Shown: positions 3,990 through 30,494 of the stretch, piece by piece
Layout: each line of letters begins with the position of its first letter
Position numbering within the stretch: the first letter of the stretch is position 1
NCBI GenBank assembly: GCA_029567505.1
Contig: JAKPXO010000105.1
Coordinates: forward strand, 1 to 40,911
From: Acidobacteriota bacterium
GTDB lineage: Bacteria; Acidobacteriota; Thermoanaerobaculia; UBA5066
Length of the DNA stretch: 40,911 nt
Direction: 5' to 3'
Program-made: the position numbers and the translations under genes
Notes under the pieces: model-generated
Databases searched by the model: none
What the model was told of the DNA's origin: nothing
The model's input: the letters and a program-made list of their open reading frames with translations, nothing else

Positions 3990-4457
3990 CCCCGCGTCCG
4001 GCGGCTCCCGGCGCCCGGAACCGCGAGCCGCTGAGGCCGACCGCCGGGCCGCGGCAGGGCCGCGCTCCATCCCCGATCCCTCGGACGGGGCGGTGCGGCG
4101 GACTCTCGCGGACCGGCGCGGCTTGCGATCCTCGTCGCCGCCCGCATGTCGCGCGCGGCAGAGTCCGCTCCGCCCGAGTCCGGAGCCAGCCCCGCCGTTC
4201 CGATCAGGCTGGTCGAAGCCTTCCCTCGTTCGCTCGCCGGCGAGCTCCGACGGCATGGCGGGTCCCGCCCCCGCCGGACCGATCGCCCGTCGCCTGACGG
4301 GGATCCGTCCGGCCCGGCGCGCCACGGCCTTCGCCTCGTTCGCCGCTGACGCTCGCGATCGGCCTGGCGGATCCTCGGCGTCGTGAGGCCGTCGCCCGGC
4401 CCACGACGGACGCAGGGCTGCGAACCGCTTCCCCACCACCGCCGCTCGAAGGACCGG
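3990..4457. other. Gene-free spacer downstream of integrase
   Basis: This 468-base stretch encodes no convincing protein; open frames here are Arg/Pro/Ser-rich shadows. It has no GTTRRRY or RYYYAAC core site on either strand, so it does not look like an attI or attC region. I see no transposase remnant in it. Confidence 0.5.
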
Positions 4458-4904
4458 ATGACCGCAATCGGACGTCTCGGACTGCTCCTGGGCCTCGCGT
4501 TCGCCCCGCTCTTGCACTTCGGACCACGCCCCTGGGCGCAGGTCCTCGTGGGCGCCCTCGTCGTTCTCGCCCTCCTCGCGGCGGCCGTCCTCACCTGGCG
4601 TCGCGCCGGCCTGCGTCTCGCTTCCGCGGGCATGGCCGTCGCGGGCCTCGCAATGGCGCTGCTCATGCGAATCCTCATCCGCGGGCCTGACCCCTTCGCC
4701 GCGCCGCCATCGGCGCTCATCGCGTTCGGCCTCGTCCTGCTCCTCGCCACGGCCTTCCTGCTCGCCCAGTCCCGAACCGCCCCGGAGCTCTGGGACCAGT
4801 GGCGCCGGCACCAGCGCACCGTGACGCTCGCGGATGTGCTCTGCTTCAGACAGATCCCGAGACTCCCCGGCGCGGGACCCTCGAGCCTGCCGATCCGGGC
4901 CTGA
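4458..4904 (+). CDS. Small integral membrane protein, unknown
   Basis: This is a 148-residue hydrophobic protein with about four predicted membrane helices: residues ~5-20, ~28-47, ~52-72 and ~88-107. They are separated by short loops bearing Arg pairs such as TWRR. The C-terminal ~40 residues are soluble, starting with RTAPELWDQWRRH. I do not recognise a family. Start chosen at the ATG at 4458 (MTAIGRLGLL), because upstream in-frame sequence is unstructured and Arg-rich. It stands as a single gene in the integrase neighbourhood, with a hairpin after it at 4963-4986. Confidence 0.6.
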   Translation: MTAIGRLGLLLGLAFAPLLHFGPRPWAQVLVGALVVLALLAAAVLTWRRAGLRLASAGMAVAGLAMALLMRILIRGPDPFAAPPSALIAFGLVLLLATAFLLAQSRTAPELWDQWRRHQRTVTLADVLCFRQIPRLPGAGPSSLPIRA

Positions 4905-4962
4905 GCCTCGAAGGGGGAGTCGAAAGGCCGCCCACGCCACCGAGCGACCAACCCGGTCTTCG

Positions 4963-4986
4963 CCGGGGCGCTCGCGAACGCCCCGG
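4963..4986. terminator. 8-bp hairpin after membrane-protein gene
   Basis: CCGGGGCG (4963-4970) and CGCCCCGG (4979-4986) form a perfect 8-bp stem with an 8-base loop, 59 bases after the preceding stop codon. There is no T-run. It may be a weak terminator. Confidence 0.35.
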
Positions 4987-5101
4987 CCCCGTTCGGGACG
5001 GTAGACTCCGAGCCCGGCCCCGCAACGCAGCGGCCTTCGCCGCGCGAGATCCGACGGCCGCGGGCGCTCACGACCGGCCCTCGGTGCCGAAGGAGTGACG
5101 A

Positions 5102-5392
5102 ATGAAGCTACCGGTTCGCCTGGTTTCGCTGCTGGCCTCCTGCACGCCCGCCTGGGCCGCCGCCGCGGAGGTCCTGCCGGAGGCGCCGCGATCGGCCGGG
5201 AACGTCGGGGCCTCGGGCCTCTGGGTCCTCGCGAACATCTGCTTCGCGGGCATGAGGGCGCAGAACAGCCCGCGCGCGGGATGGCGCATCGTCGCCTTCC
5301 TCTTCGGGCTCCCCGGAACCCTCGTGACGTACTTCGTCGTGGCCGAGGGAAGCGAGCGCGCCTACGGGATCGACATTCCCAGGAAGCGATGA
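5102..5392 (+). CDS. Small membrane protein with signal peptide, unknown
   Basis: This 96-residue protein starts with a signal-peptide-like segment (MKLPVRLVSLLASC, then Ala-rich). It continues with two hydrophobic segments, GLWVLANICFAGM (about 38-50) and IVAFLFGLPGTLVTYFVV (about 60-77), joined by a short polar loop. It ends with a basic tail (RKR). I do not recognise the family. The ribosome-binding site GAAGGAG is well placed before the ATG. It is the middle of three small same-strand genes after the integrase, all envelope-directed. Confidence 0.6.
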   Translation: MKLPVRLVSLLASCTPAWAAAAEVLPEAPRSAGNVGASGLWVLANICFAGMRAQNSPRAGWRIVAFLFGLPGTLVTYFVVAEGSERAYGIDIPRKR

Positions 5393-5462
5393 GCCCGGGA
5401 AGAACGCTTCACGACGCTCGCGTGCCGCCGACGTCCTCGATGAGGCACGTCGAGGAGATCCG

Positions 5463-5918
5463 ATGCGCACGACTCTGACCGCACTCGTCCTCTGCGGCCT
5501 CGGCTTCGCGGGATGCGCGACCCGAGGGGTCGCTCCCCCTCTCTCCCCCGAGGTCGAGCTCTCCCTGGACGACTTCCGGCGCGCCCTCGACGAGGCCACG
5601 CCCTCCGATCCCGTCTTCGATGACCGGGACCCTTCCGTGAAGGCGCGCCTGACTCCCCCTGTCGAGCTCCACCGCGTTCAGCCCGAGCTCAGCCGCGCGG
5701 CCCGCGCGCAGTCCCGCGAGGGGAACGTTGCGCTCGCGTGCGTCATCGAGCGCAACGGCTCGGTCTCGAACGTAAAGGTGCTCTCCGCGACCGGCCACGG
5801 CGACTTCACGGCCGCCTCCGTCGCGGCTGTTCGCCGGTGGCGCTACACCCCGGCGAAGATCGACGGCTCGACCGTCAGGCTGCTTCTCACCGTCACCACG
5901 TCCTACCGCGTCCGCTGA
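5463..5918 (+). CDS. TonB C-terminal-domain lipoprotein
   Basis: This 151-residue protein begins with a short signal ending in a lipobox (LGFAGC), so it is probably lipidated. Its C-terminal ~80 residues match a TonB_C fold: GNVALACVIERNGSVSNVKV, then FTAASVAAVRRWRYTPAK and a final strand. In full TonB proteins this domain touches the plug of outer-membrane receptors. Here the usual N-terminal membrane anchor and long Pro-rich spacer are missing, so it may work in the periplasm from a lipid anchor, or be a periplasmic adaptor. The ATG at 5463 is chosen because it starts the lipobox signal. It closes the row of + strand genes and faces a minus-strand lipoprotein gene across a shared hairpin. 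Confidence 0.75.
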   Translation: MRTTLTALVLCGLGFAGCATRGVAPPLSPEVELSLDDFRRALDEATPSDPVFDDRDPSVKARLTPPVELHRVQPELSRAARAQSREGNVALACVIERNGSVSNVKVLSATGHGDFTAASVAAVRRWRYTPAKIDGSTVRLLLTVTTSYRVR

Positions 5919-6008
5919 ACGGGCCTCTCTCTTCCACGCATCCGGAGGCCACGCCCACGCGGCTCGCGCCTTCAACCGGGGTGTCACGAGCCGGCTCGGT
6001 CCCGGCGG

Positions 6009-6031
6009 CCGGCAGCGGCCGGCGCTGCCGG
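6009..6031. terminator. Bidirectional hairpin between convergent genes
   Basis: CCGGCAGCG (6009-6017) and CGCTGCCGG (6023-6031) form a perfect 9-bp stem with a 5-base loop. It lies between the stop at 5918 (+) and the stop at 6036 (-), so it can end transcripts from both sides. There is no clear T-run on either strand. Confidence 0.5.
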
Positions 6032-6035
6032 ACCG

Positions 6036-6614
6036 CTAGGGTGCCGGGGTCGATTCCGGGGGTGATCCGGCCCCCGCCGCCCTCGAGCTCGCGAGGATCT
6101 CGGTGTATTCGGCCATCCGGATGTTCGACTCGGAGCGCGTCTGGATGAGGATATGGTTCTTCGTCCCCTTCTCGAGCGCCGAGACGGCGTTGAAGAGCCG
6201 GGCCTGCGCGTCTGAGACCCGGGCGGCGAACTCCTCCCGGGTGCCGGCCGGCGCAAGGACGATCGTCACGAGCTCCGTCGTGGCCTTGCGGACGGCGTCG
6301 ATGTCCCCCGCGCGTGGGAAGGACGAGTCGACGGGAACGGGCTCTCCGAGCTCGGTGAGATAGGTGACCGCGGCGAGCCCCTCGTCCGACGCCCGGTAGG
6401 CGTCAGCCGCTTCCCAGGACGGGGCGGTTCCCGCTTCCGCGGGAGCCTGGCCGGCCACGGCCTCGTCGTAGCGCGAGGCGAGGTGGCTGGCCGCGGCTCG
6501 GGCGACGTGGGCGTCGACGAGCGCCGCCTTGGTCGCGAGCTGCTCGGGAGTCGGTCCGCCGCCGCACGCGCCGACGGCCAGGGCCGCGAGGAGTCCGATC
6601 ACCGCTCTGGGCAT
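6036..6614 (-). CDS. Predicted lipoprotein, helical, unknown
   Basis: This 192-residue protein starts with a signal ending in a lipobox (LAVGAC) and then GGGPTPEQ, so it should be membrane-anchored. The rest is mostly alpha-helical, rich in Ala and Glu, with a central stretch resembling paired helices (EEFAARVSDAQARLFNAVSALEKG). There are no further Cys residues and no recognised domain. A good ribosome-binding site (GGGAGG on the minus strand) precedes the ATG at 6614. It diverges from the L,D-transpeptidase gene at 6705, and the two may share the 90-base promoter gap. Confidence 0.65.
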   Translation of the reverse strand: MPRAVIGLLAALAVGACGGGPTPEQLATKAALVDAHVARAAASHLASRYDEAVAGQAPAEAGTAPSWEAADAYRASDEGLAAVTYLTELGEPVPVDSSFPRAGDIDAVRKATTELVTIVLAPAGTREEFAARVSDAQARLFNAVSALEKGTKNHILIQTRSESNIRMAEYTEILASSRAAGAGSPPESTPAP

Positions 6615-6704
6615 GAGTGCCTCCCTTCGAGCCGGAGCCGGAAGCAGCCGCCGGTGCCACGGGTCCGGCCCCCTCTTCGATCCGCCCGATTCTAGGGCAG
6701 GCGC

Positions 6705-7265
6705 GTGAGAGGATGGCTCGTGTCCGGTCGCCCGACGCTCCTCGCCGTCGTCCTCGCGCTCGCCGCCCCCCTGCGGGCGGAGCCTCCCCTGCCCTCGCCC
6801 GTCGAGGCGCCAAGGATCGTCGTGAAGAAGGCGCGTCGCGAGCTCCTTCTCTTCTCCGGGGAGACGCTCCTGCGGACCTACCGCGTCGGGCTCGGGTTCA
6901 ACCCCGTCCCGCCGAAGGTACGGCAGGGGGACGGAGCGACGCCCGAGGGCCGCTACTTCGTCTGCCGGAAGAATCCGCGCAGCCAGTTCCTGCTCTCGCT
7001 CGGCCTGAACTACCCGAGCGCCGCCGACGCCGACCGCGGCCTCGCCGCCGGGCTCGTCACGCGCGGACAGCACCGGAGGATCGTCGAGGCGGAGCGGCGC
7101 GGGACGTGCCCGCCCTGGGACACGCGGCTCGGCGGCGAGATCTTCATCCACGGGCGGGGCTCCTCAAGCGACTGGACGTGGGGGTGCGTGGCGCTCGACG
7201 ACGGCGACGTCCGGGAGCTCTACGCGCGCATCCCCGTCGGGACGCCGGTCCTCGTCGAGCCGTGA
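6705..7265 (+). CDS. L,D-transpeptidase (YkuD family), secreted
   Basis: This 186-residue protein has an N-terminal signal peptide (ALAAPLRAEP at its end) and one YkuD catalytic domain. The domain starts with IVVKKARRELLLFSGETLL, followed by the usual GATPEGRYFVCRK region. The active-site pair is visible as H149 (IFIHGRG) and C161 (WTWGCVAL), the family's HxG...S/T-x-G-C pattern. Such enzymes form 3-3 crosslinks in peptidoglycan or attach proteins to it in the periplasm. There is no LysM or other binding domain. The start is a GTG at 6705; a second in-frame GTG at 6720 is possible and would still leave the signal peptide. Confidence 0.85.
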   Translation: MRGWLVSGRPTLLAVVLALAAPLRAEPPLPSPVEAPRIVVKKARRELLLFSGETLLRTYRVGLGFNPVPPKVRQGDGATPEGRYFVCRKNPRSQFLLSLGLNYPSAADADRGLAAGLVTRGQHRRIVEAERRGTCPPWDTRLGGEIFIHGRGSSSDWTWGCVALDDGDVRELYARIPVGTPVLVEP

Positions 7266-7308
7266 CGTGCCGGCCCGGCGGTAACGCCCTTCTGCCACAC
7301 TCGGACGC

Positions 7309-7701
7309 ATGGGCTCACTCCGCTTCTCCGTACTTCCCGGCTCGTGGGCCGTCGTCCGGTTCCCGCCCGACGCCGAGGTCCCGGCCGCGCTCCTCGCTGC
7401 GCCGTTCCACGCCGTGACGCGAACGGCGGCCGAGCTCTCGGTCGTCTGTCCGGACGGAGCGGTGCCCGAAGGGGCGCGCGCCGAGCGCGGCTGGGCGATC
7501 CTCGCGCTCGAGGGTCCGTTCCCGTTCGACCTCGTCGGCGTCCTCGCCGCGTTCCTCGTGCCGCTCGCCGAGGCCGGCGTCGGCATCTTCGCCCTGAGCA
7601 CGTTCGACACGGACTACGTCCTCGTGAAGCGGGAACGGCTCGAGGCGGCGCTCGAAGCCCTCTCCTCCGCCGGTCACGTGCGGACGGGCCCGGACGCCTG
7701 A
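7309..7701 (+). CDS. ACT-domain protein (COG3603-like)
   Basis: This 130-residue protein resembles the small two-ACT-domain proteins annotated as COG3603/ACT_7. Visible features are WAVVRFPPDAEVP near the start, AELSVVCPDGAVP in the middle, and the ligand-site-like GPFPFDLVGVLAAFLVPLAE and FALSTFDTDYVLVK segments towards the C-terminus. ACT domains bind amino acids. The position, facing the lysine operon with a 28-base overlap of the 3' ends (7674-7701), makes amino-acid sensing plausible, but no partner is known. Start is the ATG at 7309, 43 bases after the transpeptidase stop. Confidence 0.75.
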   Translation: MGSLRFSVLPGSWAVVRFPPDAEVPAALLAAPFHAVTRTAAELSVVCPDGAVPEGARAERGWAILALEGPFPFDLVGVLAAFLVPLAEAGVGIFALSTFDTDYVLVKRERLEAALEALSSAGHVRTGPDA

Positions 7702-8492
7702 GCGGCGTCGAGGCCTGGCCGGAGCGCCTCTTCGAGGATCGTCCGCGCGCCGGTCCTGGCGTCGCGGTACTTCACGATCACCGCCGCAGAGATCGAGAGG
7801 CCGCGCACGTGCGCCCAGGAGCCGGGCGCCGGCCGCGATCCCGGTACGACGACGGCGCCTTCGGGCACGGTCAGCGGCTGGCCTTCGCTCGCGCGGATCT
7901 CCCGCTCGCGGACGAGGTCGTAGAGGACGCTCGATCCGGTCAGGACGACGCCCGCCGCGAGGACCGCCCGCGCCCGCACCCGCACCCCCTCGTAGAGGCC
8001 GCAGCCCCCTCCGACGAAGACGTCGTCCTCGACGACGACCGGAAGCGCGCCGACGGGCTCGAGGACGCCTCCGATCTGCGACGCGGCCGAGAGGTGGACG
8101 CGCTTCCCCACCTGTGCGCAGGAGCCGACGAGGGTGTGGCTGTCGATCATCGTCCCCTCGTCGACGTACGCCCCGACGTTCACGTAGGCGGGCGGCATGA
8201 CGACGACGCAGGGCGCGACGAACGCGCCCCGCCGGATCGCCGACCCGCCCGGGACGACGCGGACGCCGGGCGGCACCTCGCCGCGCGGCGGGAGCGTGTC
8301 GCGGTCGCGGTACGCGAAGGGCGGCGCGGGGAGGTCGACGTCGACGCCGAGCCGGAACGCGGCGAGGATCCCGGCCTTCACCTCGGGGTTCACGCGCCAG
8401 CCGTCGCCCTCCGGCTCGGCCGCGCGCAGGTCGCCGCGCTCGAGCCGGTCGAGGAGGGCCAGGACCTCCCCGCGCGAGAGCTCGCCGCTCAC
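7674..8492 (-). CDS. dapD: Tetrahydrodipicolinate N-succinyltransferase
   Basis: DapD transfers succinyl from succinyl-CoA to tetrahydrodipicolinate in the succinylase branch of lysine and meso-diaminopimelate synthesis, in the cytoplasm. The 272-residue length fits the family. The left-handed beta-helix shows as repeating hexapeptides such as VNVGAYVDEGTMIDSHTLVG and VVVEDDVFVGGGCGLYEGV, with the conserved GSCAQVGKRVHLS and the C-terminal AAVIVKY. Start is a GTG at 8492 overlapping the dapA stop by 4 bases (GTGA on the minus strand). It is the last gene of the asd-lysC-dapB-dapA-dapD operon. Its 3' end overlaps the convergent ACT-domain gene by 28 bases. Confidence 0.9.
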   Translation of the reverse strand: MSGELSRGEVLALLDRLERGDLRAAEPEGDGWRVNPEVKAGILAAFRLGVDVDLPAPPFAYRDRDTLPPRGEVPPGVRVVPGGSAIRRGAFVAPCVVVMPPAYVNVGAYVDEGTMIDSHTLVGSCAQVGKRVHLSAASQIGGVLEPVGALPVVVEDDVFVGGGCGLYEGVRVRARAVLAAGVVLTGSSVLYDLVREREIRASEGQPLTVPEGAVVVPGSRPAPGSWAHVRGLSISAAVIVKYRDARTGARTILEEALRPGLDAAQASGPVRT

Positions 8493-25489: not shown

Positions 25490-25741
25490 ATGCGTCAGAT
25501 CGCTTCCCTCGCCCTCGCTCTCGCCCTCGTCGCCGCCCCGGCCGCGCTCGCCGGACCGGAATGCGCCGGCCATGCCAAGGCCGCCTCCTGCTGCGCGAAG
25601 AAGGACGGCGCCGACGCCGGCAAGAAGTGCGACCCCGCGAGCTGCAAGAAGGACGCCGCGAAGTGCACCCACGCCGACAAGGCCAAGTGCGCCGAGGCGT
25701 GCGCGAAGAAGGCCGAGGCGCCGAAGCCCGCGAAGAGCTGA
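25490..25741 (+). CDS. Small secreted Cys/Lys-rich protein (gene 2 of pair)
   Basis: This 83-residue protein has a clear signal peptide (LALALALVAAPAALAG) and a mature part of about 60 residues with eight Cys residues in short Lys/Ala-rich repeats: SCCAKK, KKCDPASCKK, AKCTHADKAKC, AEACAKK. The regular spacing and two His residues fit a metal-binding periplasmic protein, for example for copper, zinc or nickel. That is inference from composition only. A good ribosome-binding site (AAGGAG) precedes the ATG at 25490. It is followed by a very strong terminator at 25765-25799. Confidence 0.65.
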   Translation: MRQIASLALALALVAAPAALAGPECAGHAKAASCCAKKDGADAGKKCDPASCKKDAAKCTHADKAKCAEACAKKAEAPKPAKS

Positions 25742-25764: not shown

Positions 25765-25799
25765 GGGGCCCGGACGCCGACGGCGTCCGGGCCCCTTTT
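25765..25799 (+). terminator. Strong Rho-independent terminator
   Basis: GGGGCCCGGACGCC (25765-25778) and GGCGTCCGGGCCCC (25782-25795) form a perfect 14-bp stem with a 3-base loop, followed by TTTT (25796-25799). It ends the Cys-rich gene pair. Confidence 0.85.
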
Positions 25800-25879
25800 C
25801 CGTTTCGGGCCGTACGGCGGGGGCCGCGCGCGGCGCGGCCCCGTGAGAAGATGGCCGGCCGGAGGGTTGAGGAGGAGCG

Positions 25880-28800
25880 GTGCCTGGGAGCCGGTCCGGA
25901 CGCGGAGCCCGATTCGCGGGCGCCCTCGCGTTGATCGCGTCGCTCGCCCTCCCCGTCTCCGCCCAGCTCCCGTTCGAGGTGATCGGCCTCGGCGACGGGC
26001 TCCCGCAGTCGCAGCTCCCGACGATGGCGCAGGATCGGGACGGGTTCCTCTGGATCGGGACGCTCGGAGGCCTCGCGCGGTTCGACGGGAACGCGATCGA
26101 GACCTTCTCCACGAAGGACGGCCTTCCCTCGAACTACGTCGAGGAGCTCCTCCTGGACGACGAGGGAACTCTCTGGATCGGCACCGTCGCGGGCGTCGCA
26201 CGGTGGCGCGGGCGACGGCTGGAGCCGTTCCCGGCCGCCGGCGCCGCGCGGTGCCGCGCGATCGCGCGCGACTCCGAAGGACGGATCTGGCTCGGGACGG
26301 AAGAAGGGGTCCTGCGCTGCGAGAAGCACGCCTGCGCCACCGTCTTCGGCGGGCCGGAGCGCCCGGTGACGACATTCGACGTCCTCCCGACGGCGCGCGG
26401 GACGTACGCGGCGACGAGCCGCGGGCTCTACCGGATCGAGGGCGGGGCGGCGGAGCTCGAGGCCGGTCCGCCCGCGCTCGGCGACGGCGGTCGCGCCCTG
26501 GCGGAGACACCGGAGGGGCTCTGGCTCGGGACCGCGACTCGCGGCCTCTGGCTGCGGTCCGGCGCGGAGTGGAAGCCGGTCCCGCTGATGCCGCGCGGCG
26601 GACGGGCCGTCTTCCGGATCACGATCGGTCCTTCGGGTACGTTCTACGTCGCGACGAACGACTCCGGGCTCTTCCTCCGCCGTCCTGGGACGGTCGCGTT
26701 CGAGCGCTGGAGCACCGAGAACGGGCTCCCTTCGAACGTCGTCAACTTCGCGTTCGAGGACCGCGAGGAGAACGTCTGGGTCGGGACCGACGTCGGAGGC
26801 CTCGCCCGCTTCCGCGGGCAGCTCGTCCGGAACCTCGGGGCGAAGGAGGGGCTGCCGTCCTCGTGCGTCTTCTCGATGAGCGAGACGCCGGACGGAGACC
26901 TCTGGCTCGGGACGATGCGTGGAGCGGCTCGCCTCCTGCGCGGCGCGGAACCGCGCGTCGTCGAGGTCGTGGGCGAGGCGCAGGGGCTCGCGAACGAACT
27001 CGTCTTCCGCGCCGAGCGCGACCCCGACGGGAGCCTCTGGGTCTGGTCGGAAGGGGGCCTGCAGCGCCGGCGGCCGGGCGAGGAGCGGCTCGGGCCGGTC
27101 GACGAATACGGCTCGGCGATCAGCGCCGACGTCTGGGGGTTCGCCTTCGACGGCGACGCGCGCCTCTGGGTCGGCAGCCGCCGCGCCGAGGGCGGGCTCG
27201 CCGTGCGTCGCGCGGACGGGACGTGGCGCGTCTTCGACCGCCTCCCGGACGGCTCGCGGATCGACGTGGCGCACGCCCTGGCGCGGCGCCGCGCGGGGGG
27301 CGTCTGGGCGGCGTTCGGCGCACGCCTCGCCGCGTGCGACGGCGAGACTGTCGTCCCGCTCCCCGACCCGCCCGCGGCGATGAGCAGCCCCTACGTGAAC
27401 AAGCTCTTCGAGGACGGCAAGGGGCGCCTCTGGGCCGCGAGCGGGAGCGGCCTGGCCCGGCTCGAGACGGACGGGACGTGGACGCTCCTGACGGACCGCC
27501 TCGGCAGCCCGTACGTCTACTTCGTCGGCGAGGACCGGACGGGGACGATCTGGGTCGGGACGACGCGGGGCGTCTACAGGCTCGGCGCGGGCGACGCCGT
27601 GACGCCGTTCACGCCCGACGACGGCCTCGCCGGGTGGGAGACGAACATCAACGCGTTCCACACCGACCGCGACGGCGTCGTCTGGATCGGGACGGTCGAC
27701 GGCCTCTCGCGGTACGACCCGGCCTCGCACCGCCCGAACGCGCACCCGCCGCGCGTCGTCGTCGAGTCGGTCCGCCTCCCGGGGCGGGAGGTCTCGTTCC
27801 CCACCCGCCTCGAGCTCTCCTGGTCGGAGCGGTCGGCGGCGTTCCGCGTGGCGGTCCTCTCGTACCGCGCCCGGGGACGGACGGCCTACCGCGCCCGCCT
27901 GGAGGGGCTCGAGGAGGGCTGGCTCCCGCCGCGACGCGAGTCCGAGCTTCGCTACACGAACCTCCCCGCCGGCGACCTGACGCTCCACGTCCAGGGGATC
28001 AACGAGTCGGGGCTCTGGGGCGAGGTCGTGAAGATCCCGATCCGAGTCCACCCGCCGTTCTGGATGGCGGCGTGGTTCCGCGCCGCCGTCCTCCTCGCGC
28101 TCGTCGCCGCGGTGGCCGCCACGTTCCGCTGGAGGACGCTCGTCCTCCGCCGGAGGAACCGGGAGCTCGAGCGGGTCGTCGCGGAGCGGACGACCGACCT
28201 CGCCACCGCGAACGACCACCTTCGGCACGCCCAGGGCGAGATCGCGCGGCTCCTCGAGGCGAGCCCGGCCCCGTCCGAGAACGTGGCGAGCTGGTCCCAG
28301 GCGCTCGCCGCCGACGTCGCGAGCGCGATCGGCGCGGAGCGGATCGGCATCTGGGAAGTCCGCGACGACGTCGTCGTCCCCCTCTCCGACGCCGGCCTCG
28401 CTCCGCCACGCATCGACGACCTCCGCGGCTCGACCCCGGGCAGCCCGCGCCCGCTCCCGTCGGAGGAGGGAGCGGCCGTCGTGCCGGTCTCCGGGATGAG
28501 CTCCGAGCTCCGCGGCGCCCTTCGCGTCCTGGGTCCGGCGGTCGTCTGGGGAGAGACCGAGCGGCGGCTCGTGGGCGGGTTCGCGCACCAGCTCGGCGCC
28601 GCGCTCGACATGGCCCACATGCGCCGCCAGCTCTCGACCCTCCGCGAGAAGCGAGAGGCGACGCTCCGCGAGATGCACGAGCAGGGGATCGCCACGCTCC
28701 AGATCTGCCCGCTCTGCGGGCGCTGCTACGACCAGGCGGCCGAGGAATGCGCGGTCGACGGCTCCCCGCTCGACACGCCGCGCCCGCTCCCCTTCGAGCT

Positions 28801-29656
28801 GCTCGGCCGCTACCGGTTCGAGCGCATCCTCGGGCAGGGGGGGATGGCGACGGTCTTCTCCGCCCGCGACACGCGCCTCGCGCGCGACGTCGCCATCAAG
28901 CTGATCCGGCCGGAGCACTTCGGAGATTCCGAGCTCAAGGCCCGTTTCGAGCACGAAGCGCGAACGATCGCCCGGATCTCGCATCCCGGCGTCATCGGCC
29001 TCTTCGACTCCGGCGAGCTCCCCGACGGCACCGCGTTCCTCGTGATGGAGATGCTCCGCGGGCACGACCTGGCGCACGTCCTCCTCGAGTGCGGGACCGG
29101 GACTCCGCGGCAGGTCGCCCAGCTCGCGCGCGAGGCGGGCGCGGCGCTCGCCGCCGCCCACGCGGCGGGCGTCGTCCACCGCGACATCAAGCCGGGGAAC
29201 CTCTTCCTCGCCGACGACCCGGCGGGCTTCCGCGTGAAGGTGCTCGACTTCGGCCTCGCCAAGGAGATGGCCCACGAGCATGGTCTGACGCGCACGGGAA
29301 TGGTCGTCGGGACGCCGGAGTACATGTCCCCCGAGCAGGTGCACGGCTGGAACGTCGACGCGCGCACCGACGTCTACTCGCTCGGCGCCGTCTGCTACGA
29401 GGCGCTCCTCGGCCGCCGGGCGATCCGGGGCGAGGACCTGGGGCGGATCTTGGCGAACGTCATCGACGAGGTCCCGCCCCCCGCCTCGTCGGTCCTCCCC
29501 GGAGTCCCGGAGGCGGCCTCCGTCGCCCTCGCGGCGGCCCTCGCGAAGGACGTCTTCGAGAGGCCGTCCGACGTCGCCGCCTGGTCGGAGACCCTCGCCG
29601 CCTCGCTCGAGACGATGCCGGACGGCCTCGCCTCGGGCTGGACGAGAATCGACTGA
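25880..29656 (+). CDS. Periplasmic beta-propeller sensor fused to Ser/Thr protein kinase
   Basis: This 1258-residue protein appears to be a complete trans-membrane sensor kinase. A signal peptide is followed by about 12 propeller blades (residues ~30-640, repeats such as LWIGTLGGLARF, VWVGTDVGGLARF, LWLGTMRGAARL). A Y_Y_Y-like domain comes next (about 643-726), then one membrane helix (about 729-750). A charged linker with a possible GAF-like region (about 760-940) leads to a zinc-ribbon-like knot (C943, C946, C949, C957 in ICPLCGRCYDQAAEECAVDG). A eukaryotic-type kinase follows (about 975-1240): G-loop GQGGMATVF, K1007 in VAIKLI, D1102 in VVHRDIKPGN, D1123 in LDFGLAK. The propeller plus Y_Y_Y usually sits on histidine kinases. 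The GTG start at 25880 follows GAGGAGG. Confidence 0.9.
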   Translation: MPGSRSGRGARFAGALALIASLALPVSAQLPFEVIGLGDGLPQSQLPTMAQDRDGFLWIGTLGGLARFDGNAIETFSTKDGLPSNYVEELLLDDEGTLWIGTVAGVARWRGRRLEPFPAAGAARCRAIARDSEGRIWLGTEEGVLRCEKHACATVFGGPERPVTTFDVLPTARGTYAATSRGLYRIEGGAAELEAGPPALGDGGRALAETPEGLWLGTATRGLWLRSGAEWKPVPLMPRGGRAVFRITIGPSGTFYVATNDSGLFLRRPGTVAFERWSTENGLPSNVVNFAFEDREENVWVGTDVGGLARFRGQLVRNLGAKEGLPSSCVFSMSETPDGDLWLGTMRGAARLLRGAEPRVVEVVGEAQGLANELVFRAERDPDGSLWVWSEGGLQRRRPGEERLGPVDEYGSAISADVWGFAFDGDARLWVGSRRAEGGLAVRRADGTWRVFDRLPDGSRIDVAHALARRRAGGVWAAFGARLAACDGETVVPLPDPPAAMSSPYVNKLFEDGKGRLWAASGSGLARLETDGTWTLLTDRLGSPYVYFVGEDRTGTIWVGTTRGVYRLGAGDAVTPFTPDDGLAGWETNINAFHTDRDGVVWIGTVDGLSRYDPASHRPNAHPPRVVVESVRLPGREVSFPTRLELSWSERSAAFRVAVLSYRARGRTAYRARLEGLEEGWLPPRRESELRYTNLPAGDLTLHVQGINESGLWGEVVKIPIRVHPPFWMAAWFRAAVLLALVAAVAATFRWRTLVLRRRNRELERVVAERTTDLATANDHLRHAQGEIARLLEASPAPSENVASWSQALAADVASAIGAERIGIWEVRDDVVVPLSDAGLAPPRIDDLRGSTPGSPRPLPSEEGAAVVPVSGMSSELRGALRVLGPAVVWGETERRLVGGFAHQLGAALDMAHMRRQLSTLREKREATLREMHEQGIATLQICPLCGRCYDQAAEECAVDGSPLDTPRPLPFELLGRYRFERILGQGGMATVFSARDTRLARDVAIKLIRPEHFGDSELKARFEHEARTIARISHPGVIGLFDSGELPDGTAFLVMEMLRGHDLAHVLLECGTGTPRQVAQLAREAGAALAAAHAAGVVHRDIKPGNLFLADDPAGFRVKVLDFGLAKEMAHEHGLTRTGMVVGTPEYMSPEQVHGWNVDARTDVYSLGAVCYEALLGRRAIRGEDLGRILANVIDEVPPPASSVLPGVPEAASVALAAALAKDVFERPSDVAAWSETLAASLETMPDGLASGWTRID

Positions 29657-29690: not shown

Positions 29691-30494
29691 ATGAGACGAG
29701 ACAGCCTGCTCCCCGTCGTCGCGCTCGCCCTCGCGGCGATCGTCCCCGTCCTCCCGGCCACGGCGCAGGAGGAGAACCGCGCGACGGACGCGCAGCGGCT
29801 CCGCCGCTACAAGGGCGCGATCGCGAAGTACGAGAGGGCGCTGAAGCTCCTCGAGAAGAGCGACCGCGAGCGGGCGCTCGACGCCCTCGCCGTCAGCATC
29901 GAGGAGATGCCCGACTTCCCGGACTCGCATCTCCTCCGGGCGCGGCTCCTCTACGGCGAGAAGGAGTACTCCCGCGCGCTCGAGGAGGTCGTCGCCGGCC
30001 GGGCCGCGTACGAGAAGACCGCCGACCTGCGCGCGGGGATGCAGGCCGACCGCCGGAAGGCGCTGACGGAGAGGTTGCGCGCGAAGGACGCCGCGATCTC
30101 GGAGCAGTCCGGACGCCTCGCGAAGGCTCCGGCCGACCAGCGGGCACAGATCGAGAGGCTCGTCGCCCGGCTCCAGGGCGAGCGGTTCGACATCGAGCGC
30201 GAGCTCCACGAGCACAGACCCGACCCGCAGGGCGTGCCGGCCCGCTACAGCAGCCTCCACGGGAACGTCCTCCTCCGGCTCGGCCGGGACGCCGAGGCGA
30301 TCGCGCAGTACGAGGAGGCGCTGAAGGCCGACCCGGCGTGGGGCGAGGCGGCGAACAACCTCGCGAGCCTCTACCACATGGCCGGGAAGCACGAGAGGGC
30401 GCTCGAGATCGTCACCCAGGCCGAGAAGCTGGGTGCGCCGCTCCACCCCGAGCTGAAGAAGTCGATCGAAGCGGCCCTCGCCCGCCGTCCGTAG
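29691..30494 (+). CDS. Secreted TPR-repeat protein
   Basis: This 267-residue protein has a signal peptide (LPVVALALAAIVPVLPATAQE). Tetratricopeptide-like helices follow at about residues 45-100 (KYERALKLLEKSDRERALDAL; DSHLLRARLLYGEKEYSRALEEV). A coiled-coil segment covers about 120-180, and two canonical TPRs come near the end (GNVLLRLGRDAEAIAQYEEALKADP, then NNLASLYHMAGKHERALEIV). TPRs bind proteins, so it may be a scaffold. It starts 34 bases after the propeller-kinase gene on the same strand, with GGAGG before the ATG, so the two are probably cotranscribed and could work together in the envelope. Confidence 0.8.
   Translation: MRRDSLLPVVALALAAIVPVLPATAQEENRATDAQRLRRYKGAIAKYERALKLLEKSDRERALDALAVSIEEMPDFPDSHLLRARLLYGEKEYSRALEEVVAGRAAYEKTADLRAGMQADRRKALTERLRAKDAAISEQSGRLAKAPADQRAQIERLVARLQGERFDIERELHEHRPDPQGVPARYSSLHGNVLLRLGRDAEAIAQYEEALKADPAWGEAANNLASLYHMAGKHERALEIVTQAEKLGAPLHPELKKSIEAALARRP

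Follow-up and report, generated by a model that had tools for sequence, protein, structure and literature searches.

The predicted receptor kinase gene and its neighbours

The window analysed here is a stretch of 40,911 nucleotides from contig JAKPXO010000105.1 of an uncultured Acidobacteriota bacterium. It contains a gene that encodes a predicted receptor Ser/Thr kinase of 1258 aa and is preceded by a ribosome-binding site (Table 1). The GC content of its reading frame is 0.74/0.54/0.95 at codon positions 1/2/3, which is the bias of a real gene. Orthologues are found in two congeners (92–93% identity) and in another genus (G008, 74% identity). The genome to which the window belongs (G000) has a size of 5.1 Mb in 532 contigs, is 96% complete and encodes about 33 Hanks kinases. 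In an rpoB tree it groups with named Acidobacteriota, apart from Myxococcota, Planctomycetota, Gemmatimonadota and Melainabacteria (support 100/98).

Upstream of the kinase gene lies a gene for a small Cys-rich secreted protein of about 83 aa (25490–25741, + strand; MRQIASLALALALVAAPAALAGPECAGHAKAASCCAKK...), which from its sequence looks metal-binding. A terminator-like hairpin and a T run stand between the two genes, suggesting that the kinase gene may form its own transcription unit. The gene for a secreted TPR protein starts 35 bases downstream of the kinase gene, and the sequence-only reading regarded this protein as a possible partner whose conservation should be checked. It adjoins the kinase gene in one congener and lies 6.7 kb away in another, and no homologue was detected in the other seven genomes of the family searched, including the genus with the 74% orthologue. 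On the basis of this distribution, we reject the TPR gene as a conserved partner of the receptor kinase and regard it as a local neighbour. Immediately downstream of the 74% orthologue (L081, G008:C52), the next gene appears by eye to encode a lipoprotein with TPR and FG-GAP-like repeats in place of the TPR protein. In a congener, a minus-strand gene between the kinase and TPR genes (L093, G001:C515, 5732–6709) encodes 325 aa with many ALKSDAFQ/ALKNDAFQ repeats. Other genes nearby encode pyruvate-dehydrogenase-type enzymes, a lipoate ligase, enzymes of the aspartate pathway, a ferritin and a Tricorn protease. Nothing resembling a polysaccharide-type locus was seen among the neighbourhood genes scanned, and they indicate no operon partner, substrate or ligand.

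Table 1. Features of the receptor kinase locus (positions in the window; residues of the receptor kinase)
Feature	Position	Strand	Remarks
Terminator-like hairpin and T run	25765..25799	+	GGGGCCCGGACGCC-GAC-GGCGTCCGGGCCCCTTTT; between the small Cys-rich gene and the kinase gene
Ribosome-binding site AGGAGG	25870..25875	+	Directly 5' of the GTG
Receptor kinase gene	25880..29656	+	GTG start, 1258 aa
Signal peptide, residues 1–29	25880..25966	+	Hydropathy peak at residue 12; cleavage site by eye
Propeller region, residues 31–625	25970..27754	+	Reg_prop; 12 motif blades; matches to PDB 3v9f/4a2l
Y_Y_Y domain, residues 665–723	27872..28048	+	Pfam PF07495, E 2.3e-7
Membrane helix, residues 729–751	28064..28132	+	Hydropathy maximum 2.08 over 19 residues, starting at 729
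Charged helical linker, residues 752–795	28133..28264	+	ERVVAERTTDLATANDHLRHAQGEIARLLE; kept in homologues
GAF-like domain, residues ~799–925	28274..28654	+	By homologues, without a Pfam call here
Cys4 knuckle, residues 943–961	28706..28762	+	CPLCGRCYDQAAEECAVDG; C943, C946, C949, C957
Hanks-type Ser/Thr kinase domain, residues 978–1240	28811..29599	+	Pfam Pkinase 978–1197, E 1.3e-40
Secreted TPR protein	29691..30494	+	Pfam TPR; neighbour

A propeller-type sensor head joined to a Ser/Thr kinase

Most of the head of the protein is homologous to structures of sensors from the gut bacterium Bacteroides, which are its best PDB matches (3v9f, E 6e-43; 4a2l, E 6e-39), in agreement with the sequence-only reading that it is of the hybrid-sensor type of Bacteroidetes. 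Pfam found Reg_prop in seven stretches (E 2.3e-40). About 12 blades had been claimed and the motif was indeed counted 12 times; together with two degenerate blades seen by eye near residues 173 and 475 this makes 14, the count expected for two seven-bladed propellers. Thus, the Reg_prop blades are predicted to form a double propeller, as in heads of the hybrid two-component type. The Y_Y_Y-like domain proposed earlier corresponds to the PF07495 match and adjoins the membrane helix, again as in such heads. The hydropathy profile has two maxima, one at the signal peptide and the other at residues 729–750, where the sequence-only reading had placed the membrane helix, the absence of which would have spoken against a sensor. 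Two structure models, each predicted from one sequence, were of low quality (mean pLDDT 44 and 39) and support nothing.

The linker that follows the membrane helix is likely a coiled coil. The region between the helix and the Cys motif, in which the earlier reading had seen no domain, is probably GAF-like. This assignment is based on homologues: Pfam called GAF in four of 11 proteins with the same domain order and in several other proteins that share this cytoplasmic part, and gave no GAF match at E<1 in the receptor kinase of the window. The four Cys residues are exactly at the positions claimed, and only 0.1% of random placements give four Cys clustered this tightly. Among 11 aligned proteins, namely the window's protein and others with 30–74% identity to it, C943, C946, C957 and D960 are invariant and C949, the third Cys, is not. 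We infer that the knuckle is a putative Zn-binding site.

The kinase domain, described earlier as a complete Hanks-type kinase with a eukaryotic-like output, bears out that description. The glycine loop, the Lys of the VAIK motif, the Glu of the C-helix, HRD, Asn and DFG are all present and do not vary in the alignment, and PknA and PknB are the closest solved structures (E ~1e-53 to 1e-47). The output is therefore predicted to be an active Ser/Thr kinase with intact catalytic residues. It might be argued that the kinase domain is mainly a scaffold, or a pseudokinase, and that signalling works by recruitment of other proteins to the GAF-like domain and the Cys knuckle. In favour of this, Hanks-type catalysis in general needs neither GAF-like domains nor Cys knuckles. 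However, K1007, E1026, HRD (1100–1102), N1107, DFG (1123–1125) and the activation-segment PE are the same in each of the 11 proteins of the alignment, despite identities of only 30–74%, and we regard a scaffold as quite improbable.

This combination of domains differs from the systems it resembles. The hybrid two-component systems of Bacteroides (BT4663, PDB 4a2l; 3v9f, 3ott) have the periplasmic 14-blade double propeller, Y_Y_Y and membrane helix in common with the receptor kinase, with significant sequence homology. The present protein is not one of them: its Ser/Thr kinase comes after the GAF-like and Cys4 parts, and Pfam found no HisKA, HATPase, receiver or HTH_AraC in the chain. Transmembrane Hanks kinases of the PknA/PknB type share the kinase domain and the single membrane helix, whereas here a propeller sensor is N-terminal, the kinase is C-terminal and PASTA repeats are absent. 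Membership in the PASTA kinases (PknB/Stk1) was rejected, as the PASTA-kinase model gave 259.6 against the 450-bit NCBIfam cut-off and matched the kinase part only. Diguanylate cyclases with a propeller and Y_Y_Y, such as GdpX2 and GdpX3 of Xanthomonas (PMC6637768) and L027, L030, L032 and L033 of this genome, have the same type of head on an output that is likewise not a histidine kinase, although that output is GGDEF instead of a Ser/Thr kinase. In the open-access literature searched, no description of a fusion between propeller/Y_Y_Y and a Ser/Thr kinase was found.

A rare fusion and an apparently portable kinase cassette

How common this design is in Acidobacteriota had been left open by the sequence-only reading. 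The order propeller, Y_Y_Y, membrane helix and kinase cassette was found in at least 19 proteins, distributed over at least 12 of the roughly 498 Acidobacteriota genomes screened and over at least four families; these numbers are lower bounds because only 3–16 candidates were scored per genome. Thus, the design is not a one-off and yet is rare in the phylum. It is expanded in the family of the window's genome, where a single genome can hold as many as five copies. The carriers in the family are G008 (the 74% orthologue and two paralogues), G006 (five copies), and G007 and G009 (two, plus one partial copy), and the two congeners carry the same order with each copy split across two contigs. Carriers in other families and classes are G153, G173, G423, G457 and G463. 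One propeller-kinase open frame, L092 (G009:C98, 2959–8463, + strand), is 1835 aa long, but its first ~640 residues seem to be read-through of non-coding sequence ahead of the true start.

Since the window's genome is in 532 contigs, the fusion might be suspected to be an artefact of a fragmented metagenome assembly. The same fusion in independent genomes, including the full-length 74%-identical copy in G008, and in better assemblies of about 50–120 contigs, refutes this, and we give it practically no weight.

The same search in three other phyla, Myxococcota, Planctomycetota and Gemmatimonadota (588 genomes), gave no match that reaches into Y_Y_Y. A Myxococcota genome (G630) has, as judged by eye, the cassette behind a receiver domain, and a Gemmatimonadota genome (G1034) has one cassette-length match. 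A profile search of contigs with alignment A1 was swamped by generic kinases and found a propeller-kinase frame at none of 80 named loci; among the 40 kinases detected at these loci, only three had a CxxC..C motif just upstream.

Homologues that match only from the linker onward carry other types of head. Receiver domains stand in front of the cassette in L021, a paralogue in the same genome, and in L041, L042, L044, L045, L053, L057, L067–L070, L096 and L196. Other heads are 7TMR-DISM (L192), PDZ with helices (L055) and several membrane helices (L022, L094, L194). The receiver-headed kinases L021, L053, L045, L057, L041, L042, L044 and others have the same cassette at ~43–52% identity, whereas their head is a cytoplasmic response-regulator receiver and lacks the propeller. 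Most members of the cassette have a spacing of 157 aa between the first Cys and HRD. The sequence-only reading saw in the Cys motif something extra to this design, but the motif belongs to the kinase cassette and stays constant under every type of head. As the motif travels with the cassette, it is no oddity of the window's protein, and the idea that it is special to this protein was rejected.

Mapping the heads on a tree of the cassette requires five changes for propeller heads and eight for the four head classes combined, where three would be the minimum. If the starred branches alone are considered, the propeller label has to change just twice, and how many head swaps took place is therefore uncertain. 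The neighbours of the window's clade on this tree are cassettes with multi-helix heads (G132, G199).

The head is shuffled as well. Among ten further propeller-Y_Y_Y proteins of this genome, four end in HisKA/HATPase (one of these also has receivers and Hpt), four in GGDEF and one in a SpoIIE phosphatase, and the tenth is truncated at a contig end. Outside the family, the closest relatives by the whole head are L038 and L039, which show 40–41% identity over residues 12–784, where the match ends, and appear by eye to be GGDEF proteins. The head also occurs on other outputs and the cassette with other heads; therefore, the fusion is one combination in a two-sided domain shuffling. Judged by these comparisons, the fusion is a real but rare mix-and-match design, because in this phylum the same kinase cassette is found with several other heads. 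It appears that the actual unit is a portable cassette of Acidobacteriota, consisting of coiled coil, GAF, Cys4 and kinase, that is joined to different input heads.

Signalling model and wider connections

We think it probable that the protein is a receptor Ser/Thr kinase in which a ligand on the propeller head moves a dimer of Y_Y_Y and membrane helices, and in which the coiled coil and GAF-like domain relay this motion to the kinase. It would be a single-pass receptor of the inner membrane whose periplasmic double propeller and Y_Y_Y head binds an envelope ligand. By analogy with the Bacteroides relatives, whose hybrid two-component sensors have two seven-bladed propellers and are reported to bind oligosaccharides (PMC3243724), this ligand may be an oligosaccharide. 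Its binding would shift the paired Y_Y_Y domains and membrane helices within the dimer, for which the model is the scissor-like transmembrane motion reported for BT4663 (cited in PMC8534201). The coiled coil and the GAF-like domain would transmit the signal, to which they may contribute a cue from the cytoplasm. In turn, the kinase would autophosphorylate in trans and phosphorylate cytoplasmic targets. Trans-autophosphorylation is known for kinases of the PknB type. Of this reading, the sequences themselves show the order of the domains, the membrane helix, the intact catalytic residues, the conservation of the order in several genera and the exchange of heads, whereas dimerisation, the class of ligand, Zn binding, activation in trans and the targets are inferred.

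The GAF-like and Cys4 part is constant while the heads vary, and this would also fit a main input from the cytoplasm, either a GAF ligand or redox or metal at the Cys4 knuckle, with the propeller head serving mainly for localisation or cell-wall anchoring. We consider this unlikely, since a signal relay would be just as likely to have a constant middle part and the heads are large, conserved and of known input-module types (receiver, 7TMR-DISM and propeller-Y_Y_Y). The inputs of bacterial receptor Ser/Thr kinases are mostly unknown. For the family of the propeller head, binding assays can reveal the ligands, and ligand control of such a kinase thus becomes testable. In addition, the cassette offers a natural series, one kinase module on receiver, propeller and multi-helix heads, that would be useful for studying how such kinases switch.

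The receiver-headed sister proteins, which may deserve more interest, are candidates for direct links from His-Asp to Ser/Thr phosphorylation. L021 (G000:C25, ~4445–7723, minus strand) combines a receiver domain with the same GAF/Cys4/kinase cassette and is possibly such a link; comparable proteins occur repeatedly in the class. Some receiver-headed kinases have a HisKA segment ahead of the receiver, namely L067 and L069 (by Pfam) and L231 (by eye), and no HATPase domain was called in them. We tentatively propose, giving it slightly less than an even chance, that Acidobacteriota own a dedicated, interchangeable Ser/Thr-kinase output cassette that plugs into the input heads also used by histidine kinases, including receivers, so that two-component phosphorelays and periplasmic sensors of the sugar type would directly feed a Ser/Thr phosphorylation network, opposed in this genome by a propeller-headed SpoIIE-type phosphatase. 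The last of these is L031 (G000:C105, 1249–4563, minus strand), a propeller-Y_Y_Y protein that ends in a SpoIIE-type phosphatase and is a possible antagonist of the propeller-headed kinase.
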